Positions 2,302 to 53,931 of a stretch of 53,931 bases of DNA are shown here, piece by piece; position 1 is the stretch's first letter; each line of letters opens with the position of its first letter. The position numbers and the translations under genes were made by a program. The stretch lies in the IMG/VR virus record IMGVR_UViG_3300042936_001056, positions 1 to 53,931 of that record; one strand, 5' to 3'. This stretch comes from a virus. The notes beneath the pieces are model-generated. The model was not told the DNA's origin. It saw only the letters and a program-made list of their open reading frames with translations, and did no database searches.

Positions 2302-3906
2302 ATGTATATGGAAGAAAATAAGAAAAGATTTTTAGATAAGATTATTGAGTGGTTAGTTATTGACACTGTGATTGATTATGAGAATAGGAAATGGTTCCCT
2401 ACTTTCTTACAATATATGGAAGATTATCCTATATCACTACGTCCCTTAGATATTAATAATCTTTCTTTATTCCCGATTGTTCGTTTCTACGATTATTGTA
2501 GGAAGATATATGATTTAAGTGTAGAGGAAATAGAATATTTATGGAGTAAGTATTCAATTATTATTATAGATAAATTTAATAATGAGAAACCTATCAACGA
2601 ATCGGAGGATAGAAGAAAAAAATTCTTAGATAAAGTTGTAGATTTTTTAGTTAAGGACACTAAAGTAGATTATGATAAAAGGACGTTATTTTTTCCTTTT
2701 ACTTATAAGAGATCACTTAGACAAGGTACTAATAATCTCACACCTTTTCATAAACTTCTTTTTGATTCATATATTCCTATAGATGGTTTTATGGAATACA
2801 TTAAAGAATTGTATGATATTACTTCAATAGAGGACATCACTCATGTTTGGGAGACATATAAGGTTATTATGAATAAAATCGTATTTGGTGATAATGCCAC
2901 CCCACTCTACTTTAATGAATCTGAAAAAGGTTCAATCAATGAAGATAGTAGACAAGACTTAATAGATAAAGTAGATGAGAGGGTAAAGAAATACTTAGAT
3001 AAGGTTGTTGATTTCATTATTAAGGAAACTGTAATTGATTATGGAATAGATAAATTTAATCCAGTTATTAAGGATGAGGTACTATGGTATCCACCGTTTA
3101 GTGAAAGATCATATTCTCACCGTCAGTCAATGTATAATACGGGTGCCAATTATGATTTCAATAATTACTGTCAAGAAGTGTTTAGTATATATGATGAGGG
3201 TGAACAACTTTATGTATGGGAGAGGTACAGAAAATTATTGGGGTTTAAAATGAGAAATATGATGATTAATGAATCTGAGGATAGGAAACAAAAATATTTG
3301 GATAAGATTCTTAAGTGGTTTGTTGACGATACTATAATTAGATATGAAACGGGTGTTATAATATATCCTTTTTCTTCCATAGGACCAACGGGTAAACGGT
3401 TACCTAGTTTCTTTGATAATATAATAAATAAACTTTCGATGAATTTCCCATCAGATATTCATATATACTGTAGGGATACTTATGGGTTAAACCCTGATGA
3501 GACAAAATATATTTGGGATAAGTATAAAAAAATTATTAGGGATAGATACGATAAAGAATCGATGATACATCATCGAGGTGAACCCATAAATGAATCTGAT
3601 GATAAGAAACAGGCTTATTTAGATAAGATTGTTGATTGGTTGTTTAAGGATACCGAAGTTGGTAATAGTTGGTTTAACCCACCTTATTATTATCCAGGCA
3701 GTTCCGCAGGTAGGACTGGATTTAAATCGGTTTATGAACACACATTTGGTTTATCGACAAATAATACTTATAGTGGGTTAGATTCTCAGTTAATTTATTT
3801 TGATAGTTACTGTAAGAACAATTATGGACTTACTGGTGAGGAGACTAAAATTGTTTGGTTTGAGTATATGAAGAAATTAAAGGAGTCTTATGATTGGAGA
3901 TTTTAA
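2302..3906 (+). CDS. Five-repeat putative polyprotein (LDKV-YGL domains)
   Basis: 534 residues built from five tandem copies of one domain. Each copy starts with a charged stretch and a helix like KKFLDKVVDFLVKDT or QKYLDKILKWFVDDT, has a variable middle, and ends with YC-x4-YGL and a Trp-x-x-Tyr helix. Strings INE-S, FNE-S or INE-D separate the copies at Glu100, 206, 214, 324 and 431, a spacing of about 107 residues. These are the same residues as the capsid-protein processing site LLNE-S, so the product is probably cut into five domains. The start could be 2302 or 2308. There is no basic leader. Function of the domain is unknown. Confidence 0.85.
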   Translation: MYMEENKKRFLDKIIEWLVIDTVIDYENRKWFPTFLQYMEDYPISLRPLDINNLSLFPIVRFYDYCRKIYDLSVEEIEYLWSKYSIIIIDKFNNEKPINESEDRRKKFLDKVVDFLVKDTKVDYDKRTLFFPFTYKRSLRQGTNNLTPFHKLLFDSYIPIDGFMEYIKELYDITSIEDITHVWETYKVIMNKIVFGDNATPLYFNESEKGSINEDSRQDLIDKVDERVKKYLDKVVDFIIKETVIDYGIDKFNPVIKDEVLWYPPFSERSYSHRQSMYNTGANYDFNNYCQEVFSIYDEGEQLYVWERYRKLLGFKMRNMMINESEDRKQKYLDKILKWFVDDTIIRYETGVIIYPFSSIGPTGKRLPSFFDNIINKLSMNFPSDIHIYCRDTYGLNPDETKYIWDKYKKIIRDRYDKESMIHHRGEPINESDDKKQAYLDKIVDWLFKDTEVGNSWFNPPYYYPGSSAGRTGFKSVYEHTFGLSTNNTYSGLDSQLIYFDSYCKNNYGLTGEETKIVWFEYMKKLKESYDWRF

Positions 3907-17503: not shown

Positions 17504-17929
17504 ATGACACCATTTCTAGAAAAAGTATTAAAATTTTTAAATAAGGATTATAATGAAAATACCTTACCTAAATACGATTTTAATTCTTTTAGTTCTATTA
17601 TGAGTATTGCAAATAAATATATTTCAGAAGACTTAATTAATCGTTATGGAATAGAACAGAATAGTAAAGAATTTTACGATTTGTTAAAATATTGGTGTAG
17701 ACAAAATTATGGTAATGGTAAGTATGCAATACCTGGAGATACTATACGTTTGATAAAAATGGTGGATGATCCAAATCCTATTAACCCAAACACTATTGGG
17801 GTTATTAGAGAAATAGTCCCAATATCTATGTTCAATGAAGATCATTTAGATGTCGATTGGGAAAATGGTAGAAAATTAAAATTAATAGTTGGTATAGATC
17901 AATTTGAAAGAATAAAAGACGGTGATTAA
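17504..17929 (+). CDS. LDKV-like N-terminus with DUF4314-like C-terminus
   Basis: 141 residues. The N-terminal half starts FLEKVLKFLNKDYNE and contains an INRYGI helix, a reduced LDKV-YGL domain. The C-terminal half (PGDTIRLIKMVDDPNPI, then GVIREI, DVDWENGRKLKLI) matches the pattern of DUF4314, a small SH3-like phage domain. A fusion of the repeat module with a second domain. TAATG overlap with 17929. Confidence 0.65.
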   Translation: MTPFLEKVLKFLNKDYNENTLPKYDFNSFSSIMSIANKYISEDLINRYGIEQNSKEFYDLLKYWCRQNYGNGKYAIPGDTIRLIKMVDDPNPINPNTIGVIREIVPISMFNEDHLDVDWENGRKLKLIVGIDQFERIKDGD

Positions 17930-18969
17930 TGAAAAAACTAATTAAACATATATTAAAAGAAGAGTTTGAAAATAAAGTAAAGAAATATCTAGACTATATT
18001 ACAAATTCTTTGTTAAAGGACGTTTATCTAAAGGAAACTTCAGGTGAAACTAGATTTGGTAGTGCAGGTGAACTTATAGATATGAATCTATTCGGAGATG
18101 AGATATATGATTTAGTAAATAATTCTAAAGAATTTAGAAAATTGGGTTGGGATTTTTATGTAGATGAAGAAGATCCTTACGATATGGGGTATTTTTTTAG
18201 GACAAATAAACCTGACTATGATTATGACTATGATGAATTTTATTATGAGGTTATATATGATTGGTTACACGATTTAACTGACAAAGGTTTGTTAAATTAT
18301 AATGAAGATTCTGGAGAACACGGTGAGTGGGTAGTACCATCAAAAGATTTACTTATTAAATCCAAATCAAATTTAAGTTTAGATATACCATTATATTATG
18401 ATATAAACAAACAAAGTTATTATATACCTGACTTTTCAAGTACGAGTTTAAACGTGTCAATAATGACTTATTTAGATAAGGTATACAGTATTAGTGATAC
18501 ATCTGAAATGGAATATATTATAGATAGTTTTTTAGAATTATTACCACAAAAATTAACCGATATGGGTATTAATTTTTTCATTAAGAATGATAGAATCTAT
18601 AATAAAGTTAGGAATAACATTAACGAAGGTATTGTAGAAGATTTCATTGAGTTTGGTAAACGTGAATTATCATTGGGTGATGATTTTAAAATAAATTTAA
18701 CTGATAATAGTAGTAGTGTTGAAACTTTAGGTAATTACGATATTGATGGTAAAGAAATTACTGTAGTTAAAAAGAATAGGGCAATACCAGATATAATCAG
18801 ATCAATCGCACACGAAATGGTACATCACAATCAAAACGTAAGAGGTGATTTGAAAGGTAACAGAGGTGAAGGTGAGGAAGGATCCCCTTGGGAGGATGAG
18901 GCTAATGCGAGAGCTGGTAGATTAGTTAGACAATTTGGGGACGATAATCCTGAAATTTATGACTTATAA
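17929..18969 (+). CDS. Tagged polyprotein ending in a zinc metallopeptidase
   Basis: 346 residues. Tag MKKLIKHILKE-E (Glu11), then an LDKV-type segment (VKKYLDYITNSLLKDVY) and a Tyr/Asp-rich region. NNINE-G at Glu233 would free a C-terminal domain of 113 residues containing HEMVH (295-299), the zinc-binding HExxH, and downstream SPWEDEANARAG, whose Glu is a likely third ligand. Such domains are minigluzincins related to SprT/ImmA-like proteins. The propeptide-like arrangement suggests activation by the prohead protease. Confidence 0.8.
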   Translation: MKKLIKHILKEEFENKVKKYLDYITNSLLKDVYLKETSGETRFGSAGELIDMNLFGDEIYDLVNNSKEFRKLGWDFYVDEEDPYDMGYFFRTNKPDYDYDYDEFYYEVIYDWLHDLTDKGLLNYNEDSGEHGEWVVPSKDLLIKSKSNLSLDIPLYYDINKQSYYIPDFSSTSLNVSIMTYLDKVYSISDTSEMEYIIDSFLELLPQKLTDMGINFFIKNDRIYNKVRNNINEGIVEDFIEFGKRELSLGDDFKINLTDNSSSVETLGNYDIDGKEITVVKKNRAIPDIIRSIAHEMVHHNQNVRGDLKGNRGEGEEGSPWEDEANARAGRLVRQFGDDNPEIYDL

Positions 18970-19358
18970 AAAGTATCACCAATTGAGATATCATTATCTT
19001 CACAAAATCCTACATTAACTTCTATATTACCGTCTGAAAATTCTGAAGGTTTAATTATTGTTTCATCATTGGGGTATGCAGTGATAATATCTACAATGGT
19101 GTCCCCATTGACAAATATCATATCGATAGGGAAATTAACATTCTTCATCCAAAAACCACTACCAACATAATCGTAAAACATACCACAATTTTGACATAGA
19201 TTATCTCTATACATTAAACCAGTAACTTTTTCTTCTTCCGTAGTAGGTATTTCACAATCAATATTAATTTCTTCACCATTAACATTTGTAATAGTTATCT
19301 GACATTTACTTTTAAATGGTATTTGAGTGTCTTCAGATATAATATCTAATAATTTCAT
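18957..19358 (-). CDS. DUF192 family protein with tag-like leader
   Basis: 133 residues. The middle carries the DUF192 pattern: TEEEKVTGLMYRDNL, GMFYDY, GFWMKNVNFPIDMIFVN. DUF192 proteins are small beta-barrels, often secreted, of unknown activity. The start MKLLDIISE-D (Glu9) carries an I-S-E site in place of a signal peptide, and a late-type motif precedes it on the minus strand, so it groups with the tagged set despite its strand. Overlaps 17929 by 13 bases, tail to tail. Confidence 0.8.
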   Translation of the reverse strand: MKLLDIISEDTQIPFKSKCQITITNVNGEEINIDCEIPTTEEEKVTGLMYRDNLCQNCGMFYDYVGSGFWMKNVNFPIDMIFVNGDTIVDIITAYPNDETIIKPSEFSDGNIEVNVGFCEDNDISIGDTFYKS

Positions 19359-22164: not shown

Positions 22165-23019
22165 ATGCGTATAATTATAACGGAAACACAACTTAAAAGA
22201 GTATTACTGTATGAAACTAAACAAGAAGTCATAACAGATGAATACTTAGATAAGGCAAAAAGTATTGTAACAAAATTACAATCAAGAGGGTTCACCATCG
22301 ATGCGGCTTGTGCAATGTCAGGTAATATATGGGCAGAATCACAATTTGATGCATCAATTGAGAGTTCTAATGGGGCACTTGGACTTTTACAGTGGTTAGG
22401 TGACAGAAAAAAGGGGTTATTGTCCTATGCTAAACATAAAGAATCTGAATGGTCTAGTGAAAAAATACAATTAGATTATATTAAGATAGAATTATTGGAT
22501 GGTTATAAAATGACTAATGGTAAACAAGTACCTAATTTACCTTCAGATATTAAATCATCTGATCAATATGAGGTAAATCAATTTAATAGTGCGATGAAAG
22601 GGGATACTATCCCACAAAAAGCACAAGGATTCGCTAAATTAGTAGAAAGATGTGGTGACTGTGATGGTACGATAGATATTAGAAAACAATCTGCAAAAAG
22701 AATACATGATTATATTAACGGAACCTATAAAAAAAGTAGTGGTAAAAGTACAACAAACACTACTACTAAAAAAGAAGAAAAAGGATCCCATTCGGTAGGT
22801 AGTGTGGTATACCCTAAAGAATCTGAAGGGTATGCAAATGTGAGAAAAGAAGCAAACAGAGATAGTGATAGAATTGTAAAAGTATTATCACCGAATAAGA
22901 TTGGTACAATAACCAAAACAAAAACTGACGGTGAAGGGCATCAATGGTATCAGGTTACTTTAGATAAAAAAGTAGATGGATTTACAACTGGATGGGTAAG
23001 ATCAGACGCAGTTAAATAA
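22165..23019 (+). CDS. Tagged phage lysozyme with SH3 domain
   Basis: 284 residues. Leader MRIIITETQLKRVLLYE-T (Glu17). Residues about 25-185 form a phage tail-lysozyme-type domain: AACAMSGNIWAESQFDAS with the likely catalytic Glu, then GALGLLQWLGDRKKGLL. A Ser/Thr/Lys linker (about 190-210) leads to a bacterial SH3 domain (about 215-284: VGSVVYP, YANVRKEAN, WYQVTL, GWVRSDAV). It hydrolyses peptidoglycan. Virion localisation is predicted by the tag, and would suit cell-wall penetration. Confidence 0.85.
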   Translation: MRIIITETQLKRVLLYETKQEVITDEYLDKAKSIVTKLQSRGFTIDAACAMSGNIWAESQFDASIESSNGALGLLQWLGDRKKGLLSYAKHKESEWSSEKIQLDYIKIELLDGYKMTNGKQVPNLPSDIKSSDQYEVNQFNSAMKGDTIPQKAQGFAKLVERCGDCDGTIDIRKQSAKRIHDYINGTYKKSSGKSTTNTTTKKEEKGSHSVGSVVYPKESEGYANVRKEANRDSDRIVKVLSPNKIGTITKTKTDGEGHQWYQVTLDKKVDGFTTGWVRSDAVK

Positions 23020-26372: not shown

Positions 26373-26975
26373 TTAATTGTTATATACCACAGTTAAATTT
26401 AAAGTGGCGTAAAACCCATTTCTACCGTTCCAAATACCATATTTTGTAGAGACACCTGACATTAAGAATATTTCGTAATTATTTTTTGTAATTTTTTTAT
26501 TATAAGCATCTCTTACAACAAAACAGTGATCGGGTGATGATTCCCATAAATCAACAATTTCTTTGGTAATATCACCATATGTAATTTGCTTGTACGTTTT
26601 CAACATAAACAAACAAATTTCGTAAGTGTCGTTAACACTTTTACCACCATTATTACCGTATGAATTGGATGATTCTTTAATAATCATAGATTCCAATTTC
26701 TCAGTAAACAAATTTTCCCTCCCATCTGGATGATAAACGTGTTGTTCTTTAGACATTATATCGCAAGTTCTTTTAGATACATTGTCACTTACGACTCTAG
26801 AATAGTTCATTTTATAATTTCCTAACGAGTCTCTAACTTTATTAACTTCCACAACAATTAAACTATCCAACAAACGATAGTCAATATTATTCACATCCAT
26901 TACTTTAGAACCATCTCTCTGAGAAAAAACTACTGATGGAAGGATAAACATCAAAATCAAAATTAAGTTTTTCAT
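26373..26975 (-). CDS. Secreted CAP-domain protein
   Basis: 200 residues. MKNLILILMFILPSVVFSQ is a signal peptide. The remainder fits a CAP/SCP (PR-1-like) domain: VVEVNKVRDSLG near the start, MSKEQHVYHPDGRENL with the His-Glu-Asn features, later VDLWESSPDHCFVV. Bacterial CAP proteins are secreted, with poorly known activity. A paralogue lies at 29585 with a similar leader sequence and host-type promoter. Confidence 0.75.
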   Translation of the reverse strand: MKNLILILMFILPSVVFSQRDGSKVMDVNNIDYRLLDSLIVVEVNKVRDSLGNYKMNYSRVVSDNVSKRTCDIMSKEQHVYHPDGRENLFTEKLESMIIKESSNSYGNNGGKSVNDTYEICLFMLKTYKQITYGDITKEIVDLWESSPDHCFVVRDAYNKKITKNNYEIFLMSGVSTKYGIWNGRNGFYATLNLTVVYNN

Positions 26976-29573: not shown

Positions 29574-29603
29574 AACAATGGTGGTTAATTAACCACCATT
29601 GTT
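29574..29603. terminator. Perfect 30-base palindrome between convergent genes
   Basis: AACAATGGTGGTTAA followed directly by its exact reverse complement. It spans the stop of the minus-strand 29585 gene and follows the 29049 stop, so a bidirectional terminator is likely, although the T-run is weak on both strands. Confidence 0.5.
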
Positions 29604-30085
29604 GAAGATTCATCTACCATACCGTTAGGTAATAGTACGATAGATATACCGATTTTATTAACACCTTCTGTCAACATATTTTTCTTATGTTTTTCAGAAG
29701 TCAACCAACTATTGTAAATCCTATTAGTTACTTCGGATACATATTCTTTAGTCATAGGGAAAACACCAAATGATTTACTGATATATACGTTTTCTGCCAC
29801 AATACTATTACTTTGAATGTCTGAGTGGTAGATTTTATTCTTATTCAACATATTCACTGACCACTCATCTGCGTAGATAGACAATGATTCATCTTTAGTA
29901 AGGACACTTAAACCGTGACTCACTCTAAAAGAGTTTATCATACCAATCAAAACAGTTTCCAAAGAATCAATATCCATTTGAGAAACTACTTTCTTATTAT
30001 TTTCGATGGAATAAGAAACCATATCGTTTTGGGAATAAGCCTCTACACCCAAAATAAGACTGAATAAAATCACTAAATTTTTCAT
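29585..30085 (-). CDS. Secreted CAP-domain protein
   Basis: 166 residues. MKNLVILFSLILGVEAYSQ is a signal peptide. The CAP domain is clearer than in the 26373 paralogue: MINSFRVSHGLSVLTKDESL, ADEWSVNML, YHSDIQ, IVAENVY and WLTSEKHKKNMLTEG. Key His and Glu positions seem present. Secreted or periplasmic. Host-type promoter and independent unit, so probably expressed early. Confidence 0.8.
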   Translation of the reverse strand: MKNLVILFSLILGVEAYSQNDMVSYSIENNKKVVSQMDIDSLETVLIGMINSFRVSHGLSVLTKDESLSIYADEWSVNMLNKNKIYHSDIQSNSIVAENVYISKSFGVFPMTKEYVSEVTNRIYNSWLTSEKHKKNMLTEGVNKIGISIVLLPNGMVDESSTMVVN

Positions 30086-30142: not shown

Positions 30143-32608
30143 TTATTCACTTTTTATAATAATTTCATCTTTTGGTTTGGAATAACTTATTTTGATGGTA
30201 CCATTTTCTTTAATTTTACCACTTAAAATTTCTTCAGAGATTGGATCTTCTATGTGTTTTTGTATTGATCTATTCAAAGGTCTGGCACCATAATCTTCAC
30301 TATAACCATCATCAACTAAGTAATCCCTAACAGTTTTATTAATGATTAGGTTATACCCTATTTCACTAACTCTATTCTTAAGTTTCTGTAATTCTAAATC
30401 TACGACTTTACCAATTTCTTCTTTGGTAAGTGATTTAAATATGATTACATCATCTAATCTGTTAAGGAATTCGGGTGGGAATTGTTTTTTCAATTCATCA
30501 GTTAAAAGACTTTCTTTAATAGAATCTTCCCTTTCAATTTTAGATTTAGTGCCAAAACCTACACCTGTTCCAAAGTCTTGTAATTTTTTAACACCCACAT
30601 TAGATGTCATAATTACCATACAATTTTTAAAGTTTACTTTCCTACCAGAACTATCTGTAAGTTGTCCATCATCTAATAACTGTAACAATGTGTTATAAAT
30701 TTCTTTATTTGCCTTCTCTATCTCATCAAATAGTACAATTGAGTAAGGTTTTCTTCTAACCTTCTCAGTTAATTGTCCACCATCACCATGACCAACATAT
30801 CCTGGAGGGGACCCAATAAGTCTTGATATCGAATGTTTTTCTTGAAATTCTGACATATCTAACCTAATCAATGAATCCTCATCACCGAAAAGATATTCCG
30901 CCAATCTTTTAGCAATATGTGTTTTACCCACACCAGTTGGACCTAAAAACATAAAAGTACCTATTGGTTTTTTTGGGTTACGAATACCTACTCTATTTCT
31001 TCTAATGGATTTGGCAATTTTTTCTAACGCAATTTCTTGTCCAATAATAGATTTTTTTAACTCATTCTCTATCTCTAACATTCGTTTACCCTGATCACCA
31101 CTAATTCTTTTTAGTGGAATACCTGTCATAGATGAAACTACTTCATTAACATCCTCTATAGTGACAACAGTCCTTTCGTTATTTAAGTTAGTAACCCATT
31201 TTTCTTTTTCAAATATAAGTTTTTCATTTACTTCTCTTTCCTCATCTCTTAATTTCGCAGCCTCTTCGTATTTTTGTTTTTTAACAACTTCACTTTTCCT
31301 GTTCTTTATCTCACCAATCATCTCCTCTAATTTACTTATAGATGCGGGTGGTTTGATAGATAGTTGACTTTTGGATCCAATCTCATCCATAATATCAATT
31401 GCCTTATCAGGAAACTCTCTATCAGTAATATACCTATCTGCCATTTTAACACAATGTACTATAGTTTCTAATGGGTAAGTTACTTTATGGTAAGTTTCGT
31501 ATGAAGACTTAATTTTATCCAATATTTGAATTGTTTCCTCTATTGTAGGTGGATCAATTAATACTTGTTGAAATCTTCTGGCCAATGCACCATCTTTTTC
31601 TATATGTTCTCTATATTCATCTAATGTGGTTGCACCTATCAATTGGATATCACCTCTAGCCAATGCGGGTTTTAATACGTTAGCCGCATCCATAGAACCC
31701 GACGCATTTCCAGCACCAACCATAGTATGTAATTCATCAATAAATAAAATCACATTGTCAACCTCCATTAATTCATCGACCACACCTTTTATCCTCTCCT
31801 CGAATTGTCCCCTATATTTTGTACCTGCAACTAAAGATGTTAAATCTAATGATACAACTCTTTTATCTAATAAAGTTCTTGGTGCATCACCCTGTGCAAT
31901 TTTTAGTGCCAACCCCTCAATGATAGTTGTTTTACCTACACCAGGATCACCTATCAAAACAGGATTATTTTTTTTCTTTCTCGCCAAAATTTGGGCAACC
32001 CTTTGTATTGACTCATCTCGACCAATAACGGGATCAATTTTACCTTCAGACGCTCTTTTAGTAACATCCACAGAAAAATTATTTAAAATAGGAGTTTCAT
32101 TAGATTTAGTACTACCTTTTGGTTTCGGTATTTTACTAAAATTGTCTTCATCATTCCCACTTACTGGTTCTATTGAGTTCTCAATAGAAGTTTTATAACT
32201 ATTATAATTTATCTTCATACCTTTTAATATACTACTTATGTCATTTTTTACTTTTAAAGTTGCCAATAAAATATGTTCGGTGTCCAAATAATCGTTATTC
32301 ATTAAATCACATTCTTTTTCCGCACCTTTCATAATATTTTCAGTAACAGTCTCCAATGGATATTCTTTTTTGTTTAGTAACATAGTATTGTAGTCATCCC
32401 TATCTTTATGTAATTTCCTCTCAATACTCTTATGTAACTTATCAACATCTACACCCATATTAATTAACACTTTAATCGCATTATTATTATAATCATTTAT
32501 CAATGAGATGATTATATGTTCAATCTTTACTTCATTATCCCCATAAAATTTAGCCTGTTTGATGGACATATTTATGATTTTCTTCACCTTAGGCAAAATC
32601 TTTTTCAT
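30143..32608 (-). CDS. clpC: ClpC-like AAA+ unfoldase
   Basis: 821 residues from ATG 32608 (the frame is open to 32653, but that start lies in the promoter). Order: Clp N-domain repeats (about 1-145), first AAA module with Walker A GDPGVGKTT (about 220-228) and Walker B FIDELH, a UvrB/C-like coiled segment (QKYEEAAKLRDEERE), second AAA module with GPTGVGKTH and FDEIEK, and a C-terminal sensor-2 region (YGARPLNR). GVGF resembles the ClpP-docking tripeptide. ClpC unfolds proteins for ClpP. No phage ClpP is in the window, so it may use the host's or act as a chaperone. Confidence 0.92.
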   Translation of the reverse strand: MKKILPKVKKIINMSIKQAKFYGDNEVKIEHIIISLINDYNNNAIKVLINMGVDVDKLHKSIERKLHKDRDDYNTMLLNKKEYPLETVTENIMKGAEKECDLMNNDYLDTEHILLATLKVKNDISSILKGMKINYNSYKTSIENSIEPVSGNDEDNFSKIPKPKGSTKSNETPILNNFSVDVTKRASEGKIDPVIGRDESIQRVAQILARKKKNNPVLIGDPGVGKTTIIEGLALKIAQGDAPRTLLDKRVVSLDLTSLVAGTKYRGQFEERIKGVVDELMEVDNVILFIDELHTMVGAGNASGSMDAANVLKPALARGDIQLIGATTLDEYREHIEKDGALARRFQQVLIDPPTIEETIQILDKIKSSYETYHKVTYPLETIVHCVKMADRYITDREFPDKAIDIMDEIGSKSQLSIKPPASISKLEEMIGEIKNRKSEVVKKQKYEEAAKLRDEEREVNEKLIFEKEKWVTNLNNERTVVTIEDVNEVVSSMTGIPLKRISGDQGKRMLEIENELKKSIIGQEIALEKIAKSIRRNRVGIRNPKKPIGTFMFLGPTGVGKTHIAKRLAEYLFGDEDSLIRLDMSEFQEKHSISRLIGSPPGYVGHGDGGQLTEKVRRKPYSIVLFDEIEKANKEIYNTLLQLLDDGQLTDSSGRKVNFKNCMVIMTSNVGVKKLQDFGTGVGFGTKSKIEREDSIKESLLTDELKKQFPPEFLNRLDDVIIFKSLTKEEIGKVVDLELQKLKNRVSEIGYNLIINKTVRDYLVDDGYSEDYGARPLNRSIQKHIEDPISEEILSGKIKENGTIKISYSKPKDEIIIKSE

Positions 32609-32614
32609 ACGCGA

Positions 32615-32646
32615 TTTGTTTTTTATTATAAATATCCTTATCTTTG
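32615..32646 (+). promoter_or_regulatory. Host-type promoter (class E) for the methyltransferase
   Basis: TTTG 32615-32618, 20-base spacer, TATCTTTG 32639-32646; ATG at 32670. The overlap with the opposite late-type motif means the two genes compete for the same DNA. Confidence 0.75.
32621..32637 (-). promoter_or_regulatory. Late-type motif for the ClpC-like gene
   Basis: Minus strand GGATATTTATAATAAAA, lying wholly inside the plus-strand host-type promoter at 32615-32646. Confidence 0.55.
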
Positions 32647-32669
32647 TATTCAAATTTAATAAATAAATT

Positions 32670-44870: not shown

Positions 44871-46667
44871 ATGGATAGAGGGGAACAACTAAAAATATTC
44901 GCTCGTTGTTTAGGCGAACCAATATATGCAATCGAAACTTTTTTAAAAACATTCGATTTAACACAAAAAGGTATGGTACCTTTTAATTTGTTTCATAAAC
45001 AAAAAGAAATAATTAAATCTTATGAAAAGTATAATCGTAACTTAGTAACCAAACCTAGACAGGCAGGTGTATCAACTACCACTGCCGCATATATTGCGGT
45101 TAAAACCGCGTTTGGTGATCCAGATAACCCCCATAAAGTACTAATACTCGCCAATAAACAAACATTGGCACAGGAATTCTTAAAAAAAATAAAAGATTTC
45201 TTAGACCAAATACCTTATTGGGTATGGGGATTGGATGAGGGTACGGATTATTTAGAAATTAATTCTAAGGGACATTTAAAGTTAAAATCTAATGGTTGTG
45301 AAATTAGGGCATTAGCAACATCAAAAGATGCCTTAAGGGGTTTTACGCCAACATTCTTAGTTATGGATGAGGCTGCCTTCATCGATAATGGGGCAGATGT
45401 ATTTGGGGCTGCATTAGCATCCTTAGGTACAGGTGGTAAAATTGCATTAATATCTACACCAAATGGTATGGACCCATTATACTATAAAACTTATGATGGT
45501 GCCAAAAATAAAGATAACAACTTCAATGTAGTTGAAATGAAGTGGTATCAGGATGTTAGATACAACAGAGGATTATTTTGGGTTAGGGGAGAAAATGAAA
45601 AGATAGAATGTAAAACTTTAAATAGGACTAAGTTGAGGTGGGAATATTTAGATAAAATATATGAAACTGATGAATCTACCATAGATTATTATGAGGTTAT
45701 GGTGAAAGAGGGGTGGAAACCTTTATCCCCTTGGTATGAAGAAATGGCGGCAGATATGGGTGATCCTAAAAAGATTGCACAAGAGTTAGATGTTTCATTT
45801 ATTGGTTCGGGTGGTAACGTAATAGATGATGAATTTATCTCTTATCACGAAGAGAATTATGTTAAAGATCCAGAATTTTCTGCAGAATTAGAGAAAGCGA
45901 TGTGGATTTGGAAGAAACCTGAGGTGGGTCACAAATACATAATGGGTGTGGATGTTAGTAGAGGTGATGGTAAAGATAGTTCTACTATAGTCATTTTAGA
46001 TTTTGAGAATTTAGAACAGGTTGCAGAATTTAAATACAAACTACCACCAGATATGTTGGCAGAAGTAGTTTACAAATACGGTAATATGTATAATGCCTAC
46101 ACAATAGTTGATATTACTGGTGGTATGGGTGTTGCGACAGTATTAAAACTGTTAGAAATGGAATATAACTTCTTACACTATGACGACCCTAAAAGTAGAA
46201 AGTTATCTGAAAAGTACGCAAAAACAAAATATAATGAAGGTGATAAAGTTCCGGGATTTAATGTGGGTAATACTAGACTACAATTAGTTTCTGAATTTGA
46301 GGAACATATAAGAGAAAATAAAACTATAATAAGATCTCATCGTTTAATTTCAGAATTGAGGACTTTTGTATATAAAAACGGTAGACCCGATCATATGGAG
46401 GGTTATCATGATGATATAATAATGGCTTATGCTATGTGTATCTTTATAGTACAAACATCATTCAAAAAATTAGAGATGGTTGAAAAACAAACTAAGGCTA
46501 TGTTAGAGAGTTGGATAAACGTTAATAATAAAACAGTTGCCCCACTATTAGAGGATCAGAAGTATGTAAATCCATTCTATACTAACACACCAACATACCA
46601 CCCTAAACAAGGGAATAATAGTAATAACGACAATGGTGAGTACAATTGGTTGTTTGGTAGGAGATAG
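44871..46667 (+). CDS. Large terminase subunit (gp17-like)
   Basis: 598 residues, close to T4 gp17. The motor packages DNA into the prohead with ATP and cuts concatemers. N-terminal ATPase: Walker A-like KPRQAGVSTT (61-70), Walker B FLVMDEAAF (Asp166-Glu167), and the coupling motif ALISTPNGM. C-terminal RNase-H-like nuclease: MGVDVSRGDGKDSST with Asp361, and VDITGGMG further on, then HDDIIMAYAM. Docks on the portal encoded next. Start 11 bases after the 44014 stop. Confidence 0.95.
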   Translation: MDRGEQLKIFARCLGEPIYAIETFLKTFDLTQKGMVPFNLFHKQKEIIKSYEKYNRNLVTKPRQAGVSTTTAAYIAVKTAFGDPDNPHKVLILANKQTLAQEFLKKIKDFLDQIPYWVWGLDEGTDYLEINSKGHLKLKSNGCEIRALATSKDALRGFTPTFLVMDEAAFIDNGADVFGAALASLGTGGKIALISTPNGMDPLYYKTYDGAKNKDNNFNVVEMKWYQDVRYNRGLFWVRGENEKIECKTLNRTKLRWEYLDKIYETDESTIDYYEVMVKEGWKPLSPWYEEMAADMGDPKKIAQELDVSFIGSGGNVIDDEFISYHEENYVKDPEFSAELEKAMWIWKKPEVGHKYIMGVDVSRGDGKDSSTIVILDFENLEQVAEFKYKLPPDMLAEVVYKYGNMYNAYTIVDITGGMGVATVLKLLEMEYNFLHYDDPKSRKLSEKYAKTKYNEGDKVPGFNVGNTRLQLVSEFEEHIRENKTIIRSHRLISELRTFVYKNGRPDHMEGYHDDIIMAYAMCIFIVQTSFKKLEMVEKQTKAMLESWINVNNKTVAPLLEDQKYVNPFYTNTPTYHPKQGNNSNNDNGEYNWLFGRR

Positions 46668-46720: not shown

Positions 46721-48619
46721 ATGGCTAGAAAAACGATATTCCAACAGTTAAATGATTTATTCGGTCCTGAAGTAAAAAGGGCTCAAAATAAGTCAAGATA
46801 TTCCATAAATGATAAAGAACTTCTTAAAACTAAATCTAAGGAGGATTTTGAATTTGAGAAACTTAAAAGACAACAAGATACATACTTGTCAAATATGTGG
46901 CAGAAAGTTGATAATGAAATATATCAACACTCCATATATTACGAAACAACTAGATTGGCATCATATGCAGATTTTGAGGGTATGGAATTTTTCCCAGAAA
47001 TTGCTGCGGCATTAGATATTATGATGGAGGAATCTACAACTTTAAATTCAGAAAATAAAGTTTTAAATATATTCTCTGAAAGTAGAAGGGTGAGAAGAAT
47101 CTTAGAAGATTTATTTTTTAATAGATTAGATATACATACCTCATTACCTATGTGGACAAGAAATACTTGTAAATATGGTGACAATTTTTTATTCTTAAAT
47201 ATTGATAGTGATGAAGGTATTACAGGTGTTAAACAATTACCTAACATTGAAATTAGTAGAAAGGAGAATGAAGGGTTTGAGGGTAATACTACTATTAAAG
47301 AAAATGATAAATTTAATCCGGTCACATTTATTTGGGGTCAAAGAGATATAGAATTTAATGCTTGGCAAATTGCCCATTTTAGATTATTAGGTGATGACAG
47401 AAGGTTACCGTATGGTACATCTATGTTAGAAAAGGCTAGAAGAATATGGAAACAATTATTATTATCTGAAGATGCGATGTTAATCTATAGAGTAACTAGG
47501 GCACCTGAAAGAAGAATATTTAAAATATATGTCGGTAATATTGATGAGAAGGATGTCCCAGCATATGTAAACAAAATCGCAGATAACTTCAAAAGAAGTC
47601 CAGTTATTGATCAAAAAACTGGACAGATAGATACTAGATATAATCAAATGGCACAAGATCAAGATTATTTCATACCTGTTAGGGATCCAAACGCACCAAG
47701 TCCGATAGATACTTTGGCGGGGGCAACAAACCTTTCTGAAATAGCAGATATTCAATACTTACAAAAAAAGTTATTTACTGCACTTAGAGTACCTAAACCT
47801 TTCTTAGGGTTTGAGGAGGCGAATGGTGACGGTAAAAATTTGGCGTTGCAAGACATTAGATTCGCTAGAACTATCAATAGGATACAACAATCTATAATAC
47901 AAGAACTTAATAAAATTGCAATTATACATTTATATATTTTAGGTTTGGAAGATGAGTTAGAAAATTTCTCACTTTCCCTTAATAACCCATCTACACAAGC
48001 AGAGATGTTGAAGGTTGAACAAACTCAATTAAAAGTAACGTTGTATAAGGATTCTGTAGCAGACGCAGGTAATGGTTTTGGTGCAATGTCTATGACTAGA
48101 GCCAAAAAAGAAATTTTAGGTATGTCTGAAGAAGAAATTAGAAATGATTTAGAACAACAGAGATTAGAAAAGGCAGCAGCAGCGGAGATGGAACAAACCG
48201 CAGAAGTTATTAAGAAAACAGGATTATTTGATAGGGTTGATAAACTATATGGGGACTTTGATGCATTATTATCAGGTGCTGGTGAAGCCGAAGCAGGTGC
48301 TGGTGGTGACACAGGTGGTGCAGATATGGGAGCAGGTGGAGATATGGATGCTGGTGCGGAACCAGCCGCAGAACCTGCAGCTGCAGAACCAGCAACCACA
48401 GAATCTTTTAGAAAAGATGGTACTTTATTAACTGAAGAAAAAAGAAGAAAATACGATGAAAAAACTAAAAGATATCAAGGTATTTATTTAAGGAGATTAA
48501 CTGAAAGTTTACAAAATAACGAACACGTTTACAATTTAGATTCTGTTGAAGAGGGTACTGATATATTGAATTCAAAAATTAGTGAGATGACTAAAGAGAT
48601 TGATAAACTAACTAAATAA
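46721..48619 (+). CDS. Portal protein (gp20-like)
   Basis: 632 residues. It should form the dodecameric ring at the capsid vertex. Recognised by position between terminase and protease, by size, and by gp20-like strings: MEFFPEIAAALDIMMEES, RLPYGTSMLEKARRIWKQL, MLIYRVTRAPERRIFKI and KLFTALRVPKPFLGF. The C-terminal 110 residues add an Ala/Gly-rich low-complexity linker (EAGAGGDTGGADMGAGGD) and a helical end containing TTE-S and LTE-S, possible processing sites. T4 gp20 lacks that linker. Confidence 0.92.
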   Translation: MARKTIFQQLNDLFGPEVKRAQNKSRYSINDKELLKTKSKEDFEFEKLKRQQDTYLSNMWQKVDNEIYQHSIYYETTRLASYADFEGMEFFPEIAAALDIMMEESTTLNSENKVLNIFSESRRVRRILEDLFFNRLDIHTSLPMWTRNTCKYGDNFLFLNIDSDEGITGVKQLPNIEISRKENEGFEGNTTIKENDKFNPVTFIWGQRDIEFNAWQIAHFRLLGDDRRLPYGTSMLEKARRIWKQLLLSEDAMLIYRVTRAPERRIFKIYVGNIDEKDVPAYVNKIADNFKRSPVIDQKTGQIDTRYNQMAQDQDYFIPVRDPNAPSPIDTLAGATNLSEIADIQYLQKKLFTALRVPKPFLGFEEANGDGKNLALQDIRFARTINRIQQSIIQELNKIAIIHLYILGLEDELENFSLSLNNPSTQAEMLKVEQTQLKVTLYKDSVADAGNGFGAMSMTRAKKEILGMSEEEIRNDLEQQRLEKAAAAEMEQTAEVIKKTGLFDRVDKLYGDFDALLSGAGEAEAGAGGDTGGADMGAGGDMDAGAEPAAEPAAAEPATTESFRKDGTLLTEEKRRKYDEKTKRYQGIYLRRLTESLQNNEHVYNLDSVEEGTDILNSKISEMTKEIDKLTK

Positions 48620-50023: not shown

Positions 50024-50713
50024 ATGGAAATTCTTAAAAAAAACGAAATAAATAAAAAAGGTATTCTTGTCGAATATGACGCAGGATACATTTCCCCAAA
50101 AGATAATAGACATTTTGTAAATGAAATGTCAAACTTAACCAAAGGTCAACCTATTATAGAAGAACCTTTGGTTGTTTATGCCGTAATGCAAAAGTATGGT
50201 GTAGAGAATAGAAATGGTAGAGTATACCCAGAGGCTATCTTAAGAAGAGAGGCAGAAAACTATCTAAAATTAATCAAAGAAAAAAGAGCATTAGGAGAGG
50301 CGGATCACCCAGAATCTTCTATAGTTGCCGTAAGTAGAATTTCACATAACGTAGTCGATTTATGGTGGGAAGGTAATGTACTAATGGGTAAGTTAGAAAT
50401 TATTATGTCACCAGGATTTGTTAATCAAGGAATAATTTCTTGTGAAGGTGATAGAGTTGCCAATTATATAAGAAAAGGTTTAAAAATCGGTGTATCATCA
50501 AGAGGTGTTGGTTCTTTAGAAAAAGAGGGTGGTAAGAATATTGTTCAAGATGACTTTGAATTAATTTGTTGGGACATAGTTACCTCACCCTCAACTCCAG
50601 GATCTTGGATTTATAGTGAGGAACCTTCTGTCGAACAACAAATGTCAGAATCTAAAATAAAAAATAAAGATAATCTATTAAAAGACTCTTTAAATAATTT
50701 TTTATTGGATTAA
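50024..50713 (+). CDS. Prohead maturation protease (gp21-like)
   Basis: 229 residues, similar to T4 gp21 (212). A serine protease with a herpesvirus-assemblin-like fold that matures the prohead by cutting after L/I-x-E. Visible: NGRVYPEAILRREA, GEADHPESS with candidate catalytic His95, and IGVSSRGVGS with Ser158/Ser159; FELICWDIVTSPSTPGSW closes the core. It lies between the core protein and the scaffold, as in T4. It is the predicted processor of the tagged and repeat proteins in this window. Confidence 0.92.
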   Translation: MEILKKNEINKKGILVEYDAGYISPKDNRHFVNEMSNLTKGQPIIEEPLVVYAVMQKYGVENRNGRVYPEAILRREAENYLKLIKEKRALGEADHPESSIVAVSRISHNVVDLWWEGNVLMGKLEIIMSPGFVNQGIISCEGDRVANYIRKGLKIGVSSRGVGSLEKEGGKNIVQDDFELICWDIVTSPSTPGSWIYSEEPSVEQQMSESKIKNKDNLLKDSLNNFLLD

Positions 50714-52274: not shown

Positions 52275-53931
52275 ATGGGACATTTGTTAAACTCAGGTGA
52301 AGTCGGAAATATCGGACTAGAACACCTAAAACAAATCAGATCTAAAACAATTTCTAAATGGAACAAATTAGGTTTCTTAGAAGGTTTAAAAGGTCACGTA
52401 AAAGAGAACATCGCTCAATTATATGAAAACCAAGCATCTGCATTGTTGAACGAATCAACAGGAGCAGACTCATCAGGATCTTTCGAAACTGTGGTTTTCC
52501 CAATTGTGAGAAGAGTATTCTCTAAATTATTGGCTAACGATATCGTATCAGTACAAGCGATGAACATGCCAATCGGTAAATTATTCTTCTTTGTACCTAA
52601 GACATCTGATGGAGCATTTCCATTGAATGGTTCTAACAACGGTGCTAATGGAGCATTACCAGAATGTACAATCTCTGCTTGTGGTGACACAACTTTGACT
52701 ACATTCCAAGAAAAATCACTTTATGATTTATATTATAATGATGGTTTATATGATGCATCTAAAGGAAGTTATACTGTATTTTCAACTACAGGTTATCAAG
52801 GTGTAATTCTTAACGCTAACGGTACTAGTACTGTAACTGCATTAACTGCACAACCAAAAGCAAGTGACGGTTCTTTCAGAAACGTTAAATTACGTGTTAC
52901 TGGTTTCACATCCACTAACGCAGGTAGATTAACTGGACCAGATGGTAACGAAATGGATACTGAGGCATTCTTAGCATCTTTAAAAATTGTTACTACTCCA
53001 GCAATCAATGATCAAGACGGTCAAAATATTATCGCAGCAGGTGCTGAGATACCATTTAGATTGGTAACACAGAAATACGGTAGAGGTATCGTAGATTACG
53101 GTCAAGATATCTGTGATACTGACGGAGGTTTATTGGTTGAATTAGATTTAACTCACCCAGCATGTATTAGTTGTTCTTCAGCTAATTTTGATGGTTACGT
53201 TGGAGCTGCATCAGCAACTACGTTCACAGGATTAACAATCTCTTGGAGACAATACCAAACATTAGAATACGCTACAGAAATGGGTGAGGTTTCTTTTGAA
53301 TTGGATGAAGTAGTTGTTTCTGTAACTGAGAGAAAATTGAGAGCAACTTGGTCTCCAGAATTAGCACAAGACGTTAGTGCATTCCATAACATCGATGCAG
53401 AAGCTGAACTTACGGCTCTTTTATCTGAGCAGGTTGCTGCTGAGATCGATAGAGAGATCTTAAGAGACTTAAGAAAAGGTGCGGCTTGGCAATTGAGATG
53501 GGATTACAACGGATGGAAGAGAGCTAACTCTGGTGGTGGTTTCAACGCATACACTCAAAAAGAGTGGAATCAGACGTTGATTACTAGAATCAATCAAGTT
53601 TCTGCACAAATTCACAAATCAACTTTGAGAGGTGGCGCAAACTTCGTAGTAGTATCTTCTGAGATATCAGCAATTTTTGATGACTTAGAATACTTCCACG
53701 TATCTAACGCTTCTCCAGAGCAAGATCAGTACAACATGGGTATTGAGAAAATCGGTTCATTAGGTGGAAGATATACTGTATATCGTGACCCATATGCACC
53801 AGCAAACTCAATCATCATTGGACACAAAGGTAAGTCATTGTTAGATACTGGATACATTTACGCTCCGTATGTACCATTACAATTGACTCCAACATTACAA
53901 AACCCATTCAACTTCGCACCAACGAAGGGGA
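52275..53931 (+). CDS. Major capsid protein (gp23-like), 3' end outside window
   Basis: At least 552 residues, still open at the edge; T4 gp23 has 521. It forms the capsid hexamers (HK97 fold). Residues 1-60 are a helical propeptide ending LYENQASALLNE; LLNE-S (57-61) matches the place where gp23 is cut (FLTE-A, residue 65). Then VVFPIVRRVFSKLLANDIVS and gp23-like IGKLFFFVPKTS. Codons end in C far more often than in neighbouring genes (ATC, TTC, AAC), as expected for the most expressed gene. Confidence 0.93.
   Translation, partial: MGHLLNSGEVGNIGLEHLKQIRSKTISKWNKLGFLEGLKGHVKENIAQLYENQASALLNESTGADSSGSFETVVFPIVRRVFSKLLANDIVSVQAMNMPIGKLFFFVPKTSDGAFPLNGSNNGANGALPECTISACGDTTLTTFQEKSLYDLYYNDGLYDASKGSYTVFSTTGYQGVILNANGTSTVTALTAQPKASDGSFRNVKLRVTGFTSTNAGRLTGPDGNEMDTEAFLASLKIVTTPAINDQDGQNIIAAGAEIPFRLVTQKYGRGIVDYGQDICDTDGGLLVELDLTHPACISCSSANFDGYVGAASATTFTGLTISWRQYQTLEYATEMGEVSFELDEVVVSVTERKLRATWSPELAQDVSAFHNIDAEAELTALLSEQVAAEIDREILRDLRKGAAWQLRWDYNGWKRANSGGGFNAYTQKEWNQTLITRINQVSAQIHKSTLRGGANFVVVSSEISAIFDDLEYFHVSNASPEQDQYNMGIEKIGSLGGRYTVYRDPYAPANSIIIGHKGKSLLDTGYIYAPYVPLQLTPTLQNPFNFAPTKG

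Follow-up and report, generated by a model that had tools for sequence, protein, structure and literature searches.

In phage T4, the internal proteins bear short tags (capsid targeting sequences) and are cleaved by the S77 protease gp21 (PMC9026906). The tags of IPI-IPIII and Alt are N-terminal and end in I/L-x-E, and the T4 capsid protein has a site of the same kind. Long propeptides that are cut several times have been described in phage SPN3US, and in SPN3US and phiKZ a single head precursor may receive several cuts after glutamate (PMC10052503, PMC5694885). In polyvalent proteins, which occur in phages and conjugative elements and are believed to reach the host along with the DNA, unrelated domains are fused with a zincin that has been proposed to self-process the protein or to act as an effector (PMC5512222). 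The zincins of jumbo phages have been proposed to serve in maturation or to act on host targets (PMC7824862). Small HExxH folds in which a later helix bears a glutamate are found in the minigluzincins abylysin and selecase and in IrrE/ImmA (M78).

The phage gene described here was compared with each of these systems. Its product may be likened to T4 Alt, which is cut near both ends, but T4 cargo consists of single proteins, whereas the cut in the focal protein would separate two domains and release an enzyme from a fusion. Like the polyvalent proteins, the focal family joins unrelated domains with a zinc peptidase; autoprocessing by the zincin was proposed for the former, whereas the joints of the focal family instead carry sites of the capsid-protease type. 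Several candidate cuts after glutamate in one precursor recall the SPN3US and phiKZ head proteins, although the SPN3US motif is A-x-E rather than I/L-x-E, and the N-terminal parts of those proteins are mostly lost from the head. Unlike the minigluzincins and IrrE/ImmA, the focal protein reaches no curated family and is without a DNA-binding domain. In the open-access literature, no paper was found on capsid-protease sites between cargo domains, and a literature search for virion proteomics of the relatives likewise returned none.

Layout of the focal gene

The stretch of DNA analysed (hereafter the window), a 53.9-kb virus record, contains a T4-like head cluster that includes a terminase at 44871 and a portal at 46721. 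The focal gene (17929-18969, + strand) has an ATG start and encodes 346 amino acids. An initial annotation had read it as a tag, a spacer domain, a prohead-protease cut and a zinc peptidase, forming a zymogen that is activated during head maturation and injected. This order of parts was upheld. Residues 1-11 (17929..17961) are the tag MKKLIKHILKE, with a candidate cut after Glu11 (KE↓E; arrows mark candidate cuts), and many similar tags occur in the window. The spacer comprises residues 12-233 (17962..18627). At residues 231-234 (18619..18630) is the site INE↓G, in which Glu233 ends INE and is followed by Gly234, and the predicted cut leaves a 113-residue C-terminal product. This product is the zinc peptidase domain (18628..18966), with the HExxH motif, as HEMVH, at residues 295-299 and a probable third ligand, E322. 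All of these features are on the + strand.

The upstream neighbour gene (17504..17929, + strand) has, by eye, a similar sequence joined directly to the peptidase in relative L008. A DUF192 gene (18957-19358, - strand; E 1.4e-18) is convergent with the focal gene and overlaps its last codons, and this pair is also kept in relatives L002, L003, and L004.

I/L-x-E occurs four times in the focal protein (E11, E36, E233, and E237), and the tripeptide is too common for a lone occurrence to be other than weak evidence. On sequence comparison, what goes beyond chance is the position of the site at a domain boundary, its reappearance in relatives at the corresponding joint, and the peptidase signature.

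Fold and family of the peptidase domain

No informative family above the curated cut-off was found for the focal protein in Pfam, PHROGs, or NCBIfam. The cut-off of Pfam Peptidase M78 was not reached by the focal protein but was passed by relative L059 (28.5 bits versus 22). A PDB sequence search gave nothing convincing, and the polyvalent zincin Pfam models had no match in the focal protein or in 55 relatives at E 0.01; weak matches to general metallopeptidase models were seen in the same check. Residues H295, E296, H299, Q302, and E322 are invariant in the 55 relatives, as are R284, D288, and R291.

The 113-aa product alone was predicted with AlphaFold2 at a pLDDT of 94.7 and a pTM of 0.89, with the first helix starting at product residue 2. 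In this prediction, the product by itself forms a complete IrrE/minigluzincin-like fold, in which a small alpha/beta structure holds the HExxH helix and the glutamate helix. Fold matches in the PDB were minigluzincins (4jiu, 4qhi), IrrE/PprI (8sln, 3dti), and the protease domain 6mdx, at TM scores of about 0.5-0.6 and E values of 0.0025 or weaker, and the viral fold matches were IrrE-like phage proteins at TM scores of about 0.9. The full-length model was modest (pLDDT 76, pTM 0.49); a helix runs across the cut site in it, and it matches known proteins via the peptidase only. Since IrrE, ImmA, and CapP cleave repressor-like proteins, a host regulator is, by analogy, a fair guess for the target of the peptidase.

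Prohead protease, capsid site and tags of the phage

The presumed cutter is an S77 prohead protease encoded at 50024-50713 (+ strand; PF03420, E 3.5e-24; phrog_207, E 8.7e-41). The Gp23 major capsid protein (52275..53931, + strand, running off the window end; PF07068, E 5.6e-66) has LLNE↓S at residue 60. In the aligned capsid column, I/L-x-E is present in 18 of 20 capsid proteins, as LNE, LTE, LSE, INE, LDE, IDE, LQE, LVE, or LIE, and the other two have VVE. From its place after the propeptide, this column is probably the maturation site, and it agrees with INE↓G in the focal protein. S77 was found in 15 of the 16 records of relatives longer than 100 kb, the exception (G011, 102 kb) being possibly incomplete. 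Two features of T4-type internal head proteins were found: the focal protein starts with a short tag that ends in a site of the prohead-protease type, and the phage has an S77 protease together with a matching capsid site.

Outside the head cluster, small ORFs of 137-192 aa (L116, L117, L119, L120, and L121, in records G009, G012, G020, G027, and G006) were also observed to contain short in-frame segments of the major capsid protein, taken from just past the probable maturation site. The L116 ORF additionally contains a piece of the S77 protease. These ORFs are possibly decoys or capsid mimics. A further small ORF of 152 aa (L118, G012 226364-226820) contains a deeper piece of the capsid protein (profile 154-206).

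Genes with short tags are abundant in the first 30 kb of the window, mostly on the + strand. Among ORFs of at least 100 aa, taken by simple longest-ORF selection and therefore with approximate start sites, I/L-x-E with the Glu at position 9-18 was counted in 28 of 56 window genes, versus 9.5 (SD 2.8) in shuffled N-termini. The corresponding count in G001, a 166-kb relative that is the record of L003, was 72 of 171 genes versus 27.7 (SD 5.1) shuffled, and the excess was greatest in the same tagged block, at about 91-139 kb (32 of 54 genes versus 9.5). A 37-aa tag query matched no phage record. A second tagged enzyme is encoded in the window at 22165-23019, where the tag MRIIITETQLKRVLLYE is followed by a phage lysozyme domain (Phage_lysozyme2, E 2.8e-21); an SH3-like stretch, under its cut-off, is present in the same gene.

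Sites at the joints of peptidase fusions

An alignment-based scan of the viral collection yielded at least 548 relatives of the peptidase, of which 80 were kept. Of 27 distinct fusion joints, 26 have I/L-x-E no more than 30 residues before the peptidase, L023 being the sole exception, versus a shuffled expectation of 11.2 (SD 2.3, maximum 19 over 2000 shuffles); these joints are not fully independent, since relatives share history, and they represent roughly a dozen distinct fusion architectures. A 30-aa stretch elsewhere in the same fused proteins contains I/L-x-E 23% of the time. Among short forms of the protein, 23 of 38 have I/L-x-E before the domain, versus 8.7 (SD 2.2), and I/L-x-x-E is also raised there. 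In most of the remaining 15, the domain is preceded by fewer than 12 residues and there seems to be no tag; one of the 15, L087, sits in a record with S77. Because of these short untagged relatives, the peptidase family cannot be regarded as always head-directed.

The counts bear on another account, in which the focal protein is an ordinary intracellular two-domain protein that is never packaged, and I/L-x-E at its joint reflects coincidence or the composition of a helical linker. The untagged relatives are in keeping with this, as is the frequency of I/L-x-E, which away from N-termini has a background of about 1.4-1.6% per position. The motif is nevertheless enriched at both fusion and module joints, while eight control motifs tested at the fusion joints showed no enrichment, and we consider this account quite unlikely.

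The prohead-protease-type site that had been noted at the peptidase joint is kept in relatives, as INE↓G in L002 and L003 and as ITE↓S in L004, and the tag is conserved in all three. L002 reads MMKKLIKRILKEEVSNIVRNNINE↓GIVEDF, with the spacer absent in frame and the tag and site retained. In cyanophage B23 (Synechococcus phage B23, gp332), MNYKQFLRE↓S immediately precedes the peptidase domain, and in Flavobacterium phage immuto the peptidase forms part of a NadR-like protein; both are cultured S77 phages. The N-terminus of L016 is MKPTIKQLLRE↓R, and L011 has KPMIKSLLRE↓G internally, behind a GNAT acetyltransferase domain; stand-alone relatives thus begin with the same tag that fusions carry internally. 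In L073 the peptidase is followed by KMNIVITEQQLHRILE↓S and then by peptidoglycan-binding and transglycosylase domains. Further fusion partners are NT5C and cytidylyltransferase-like domains. Several unrelated enzymatic domains are present per polypeptide in L011, L061, L068, L073, and L077, whereas the focal protein has one recognised domain. The simplest reading of these sequences is that tagged cargo genes have been fused repeatedly and that the internal tag and cut site have been kept.

Also seen were fusions of 1300-1835 aa in which the peptidase lies mid-protein and the starts are similar (L034, L035, L037, L062, L068, L072, L077, L080, and L085). The two that were tested, L068 and L077, start with a cytidylyltransferase-like domain, and LL(T/M/L)E↓GGAY stretches occur farther along in L068, L077, and L080.

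It was on the zymogen that the initial annotation did not hold. In that account, the spacer would hold the peptidase in an inactive state up to its removal by the prohead protease, as the large domain before the enzyme and the probable cut at the boundary might suggest. However, the close relative L002 consists of tag, INE↓G, and peptidase with no spacer, the B23 protein and many other short tagged enzymes stand alone, many unrelated partners occupy the same place, and a spacer-like module is also found alone or repeated. Since L002 and the stand-alone relatives lack the spacer, it does not form a conserved prodomain, and the zymogen was set aside as highly improbable.

The spacer and the LDKV modules

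The window encodes a five-module LDKV polyprotein (2302-3906, + strand) with INE at all four joints, and G001 encodes a six-unit one (111853-113700, locus L093). The modules are about 100 aa long and their joints are marked by I/L-x-E↓S or D. All 16 full internal modules in the window and G001 have I/L-x-E at the joint, and when two half-matches (one in the focal protein, one in its relative from G001) are counted as well, the figure is 16 of 18, versus 5.8 (SD 1.9, maximum 13); the window and G001 tests are not independent, since the profile was built from the window modules and G001 is a relative. Both polyproteins are without an N-terminal tag, which a cargo model leaves unexplained.

An HMM of the LDKV module matched the focal spacer at residues 14-41 (E 0.022) and 173-212 (E 8e-4), and the spacer of the G001 relative was matched in halves at E 4e-4 and 0.016. 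Alignment of spacer and module with hhalign gave an E value of 3e-4, but with a probability of 39 and over a short length (36 columns). On the basis mainly of the two-part HMM matches, in which each phage has one weak half, the spacer appears to belong to the LDKV module family, likely as a split copy with an insertion of about 130 residues.

This resemblance is relevant to a further alternative, that residues 1-233 are a disposable long propeptide, chopped by the prohead protease so that the peptidase alone stays in the head. SPN3US offers a precedent, with propeptides of 111-254 residues (PMC10052503), an extra I/L-x-E lies at E36, and the spacer evolves faster than the peptidase (33% versus 69% identity with L004). 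On the other hand, the same place in other fusions is taken by recognisable enzymes (GNAT, NT5C, and cytidylyltransferase-like), and the module that the spacer resembles also occurs alone. A propeptide is therefore judged unlikely. The LDKV polyproteins, together with the capsid protein, also argue against a self-processing polyvalent protein, in which the zinc peptidase itself would cut the fusion, because the same I/L-x-E is found in these zincin-free proteins. Although zincins are the commonest polyvalent-protein domain and have been proposed to autoprocess (PMC5512222), we consider this very unlikely.

Proposed explanation

The reading we favour, and hold to be moderately probable, is that the focal protein is a two-part head-cargo polyprotein that is cut by the S77 prohead protease and whose peptidase is ejected with the DNA. 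The tag (residues 1-11) would bring the precursor into the prohead core, as the T4 capsid targeting sequences do. During head maturation, the protease would cut after I/L-x-E at Glu11 and Glu233, freeing the spacer module and the complete 113-residue IrrE/minigluzincin-like zinc peptidase, which would leave with the DNA and, early in infection, cleave one host protein or a few. The internal site would be the tag and cut site of a once stand-alone peptidase gene, kept on fusion behind another cargo gene. From the layout, the joint-conserved site, the predicted fold, the protease gene, and the matching capsid site, all read from sequence, we infer packaging, cleavage, ejection, catalysis, and some host target. 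Weighing against this reading are the modest full-length model with its helix across the site, the short relatives that have no I/L-x-E before the domain, and the untagged LDKV polyproteins. Cleavage in the head is likely, and action of the peptidase on host proteins is evenly balanced. The virion location and injection of the focal protein are suggested by analogy with the T4 internal proteins (PMC9026906).

More tentatively, the capsid-maturation protease may act as a general polyprotein processor in some T4-like phages, with cargo strung head to tail, sharing tags, and separated inside the prohead. Each module would then keep or gain I/L-x-E, and the zinc peptidase would be one among many injected proteins; we put this reading slightly short of even.

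If the proposal is true, a tag combined with I/L-x-E at domain joints would serve as a sequence rule by which head-packed phage proteins could be recognised in genomes, and the disassembly of large fusions that have no embedded autoprotease would be explained. The small, conserved zinc peptidase, for which the viral collection contains at least 548 relatives, would be a candidate early effector on host proteins, and many testable candidates for the roles of T4-type internal proteins would be provided.

Other genes of the window

Three ORFs on the - strand of the window were also observed. Those at 26373-26975 and 29585-30085 have signal-peptide-like starts; the former has no Pfam match and the latter contains a CAP domain (E 1.2e-10). 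The third, at 30143-32653, encodes an 836-aa ClpB/ClpC-like ATPase in the phage.
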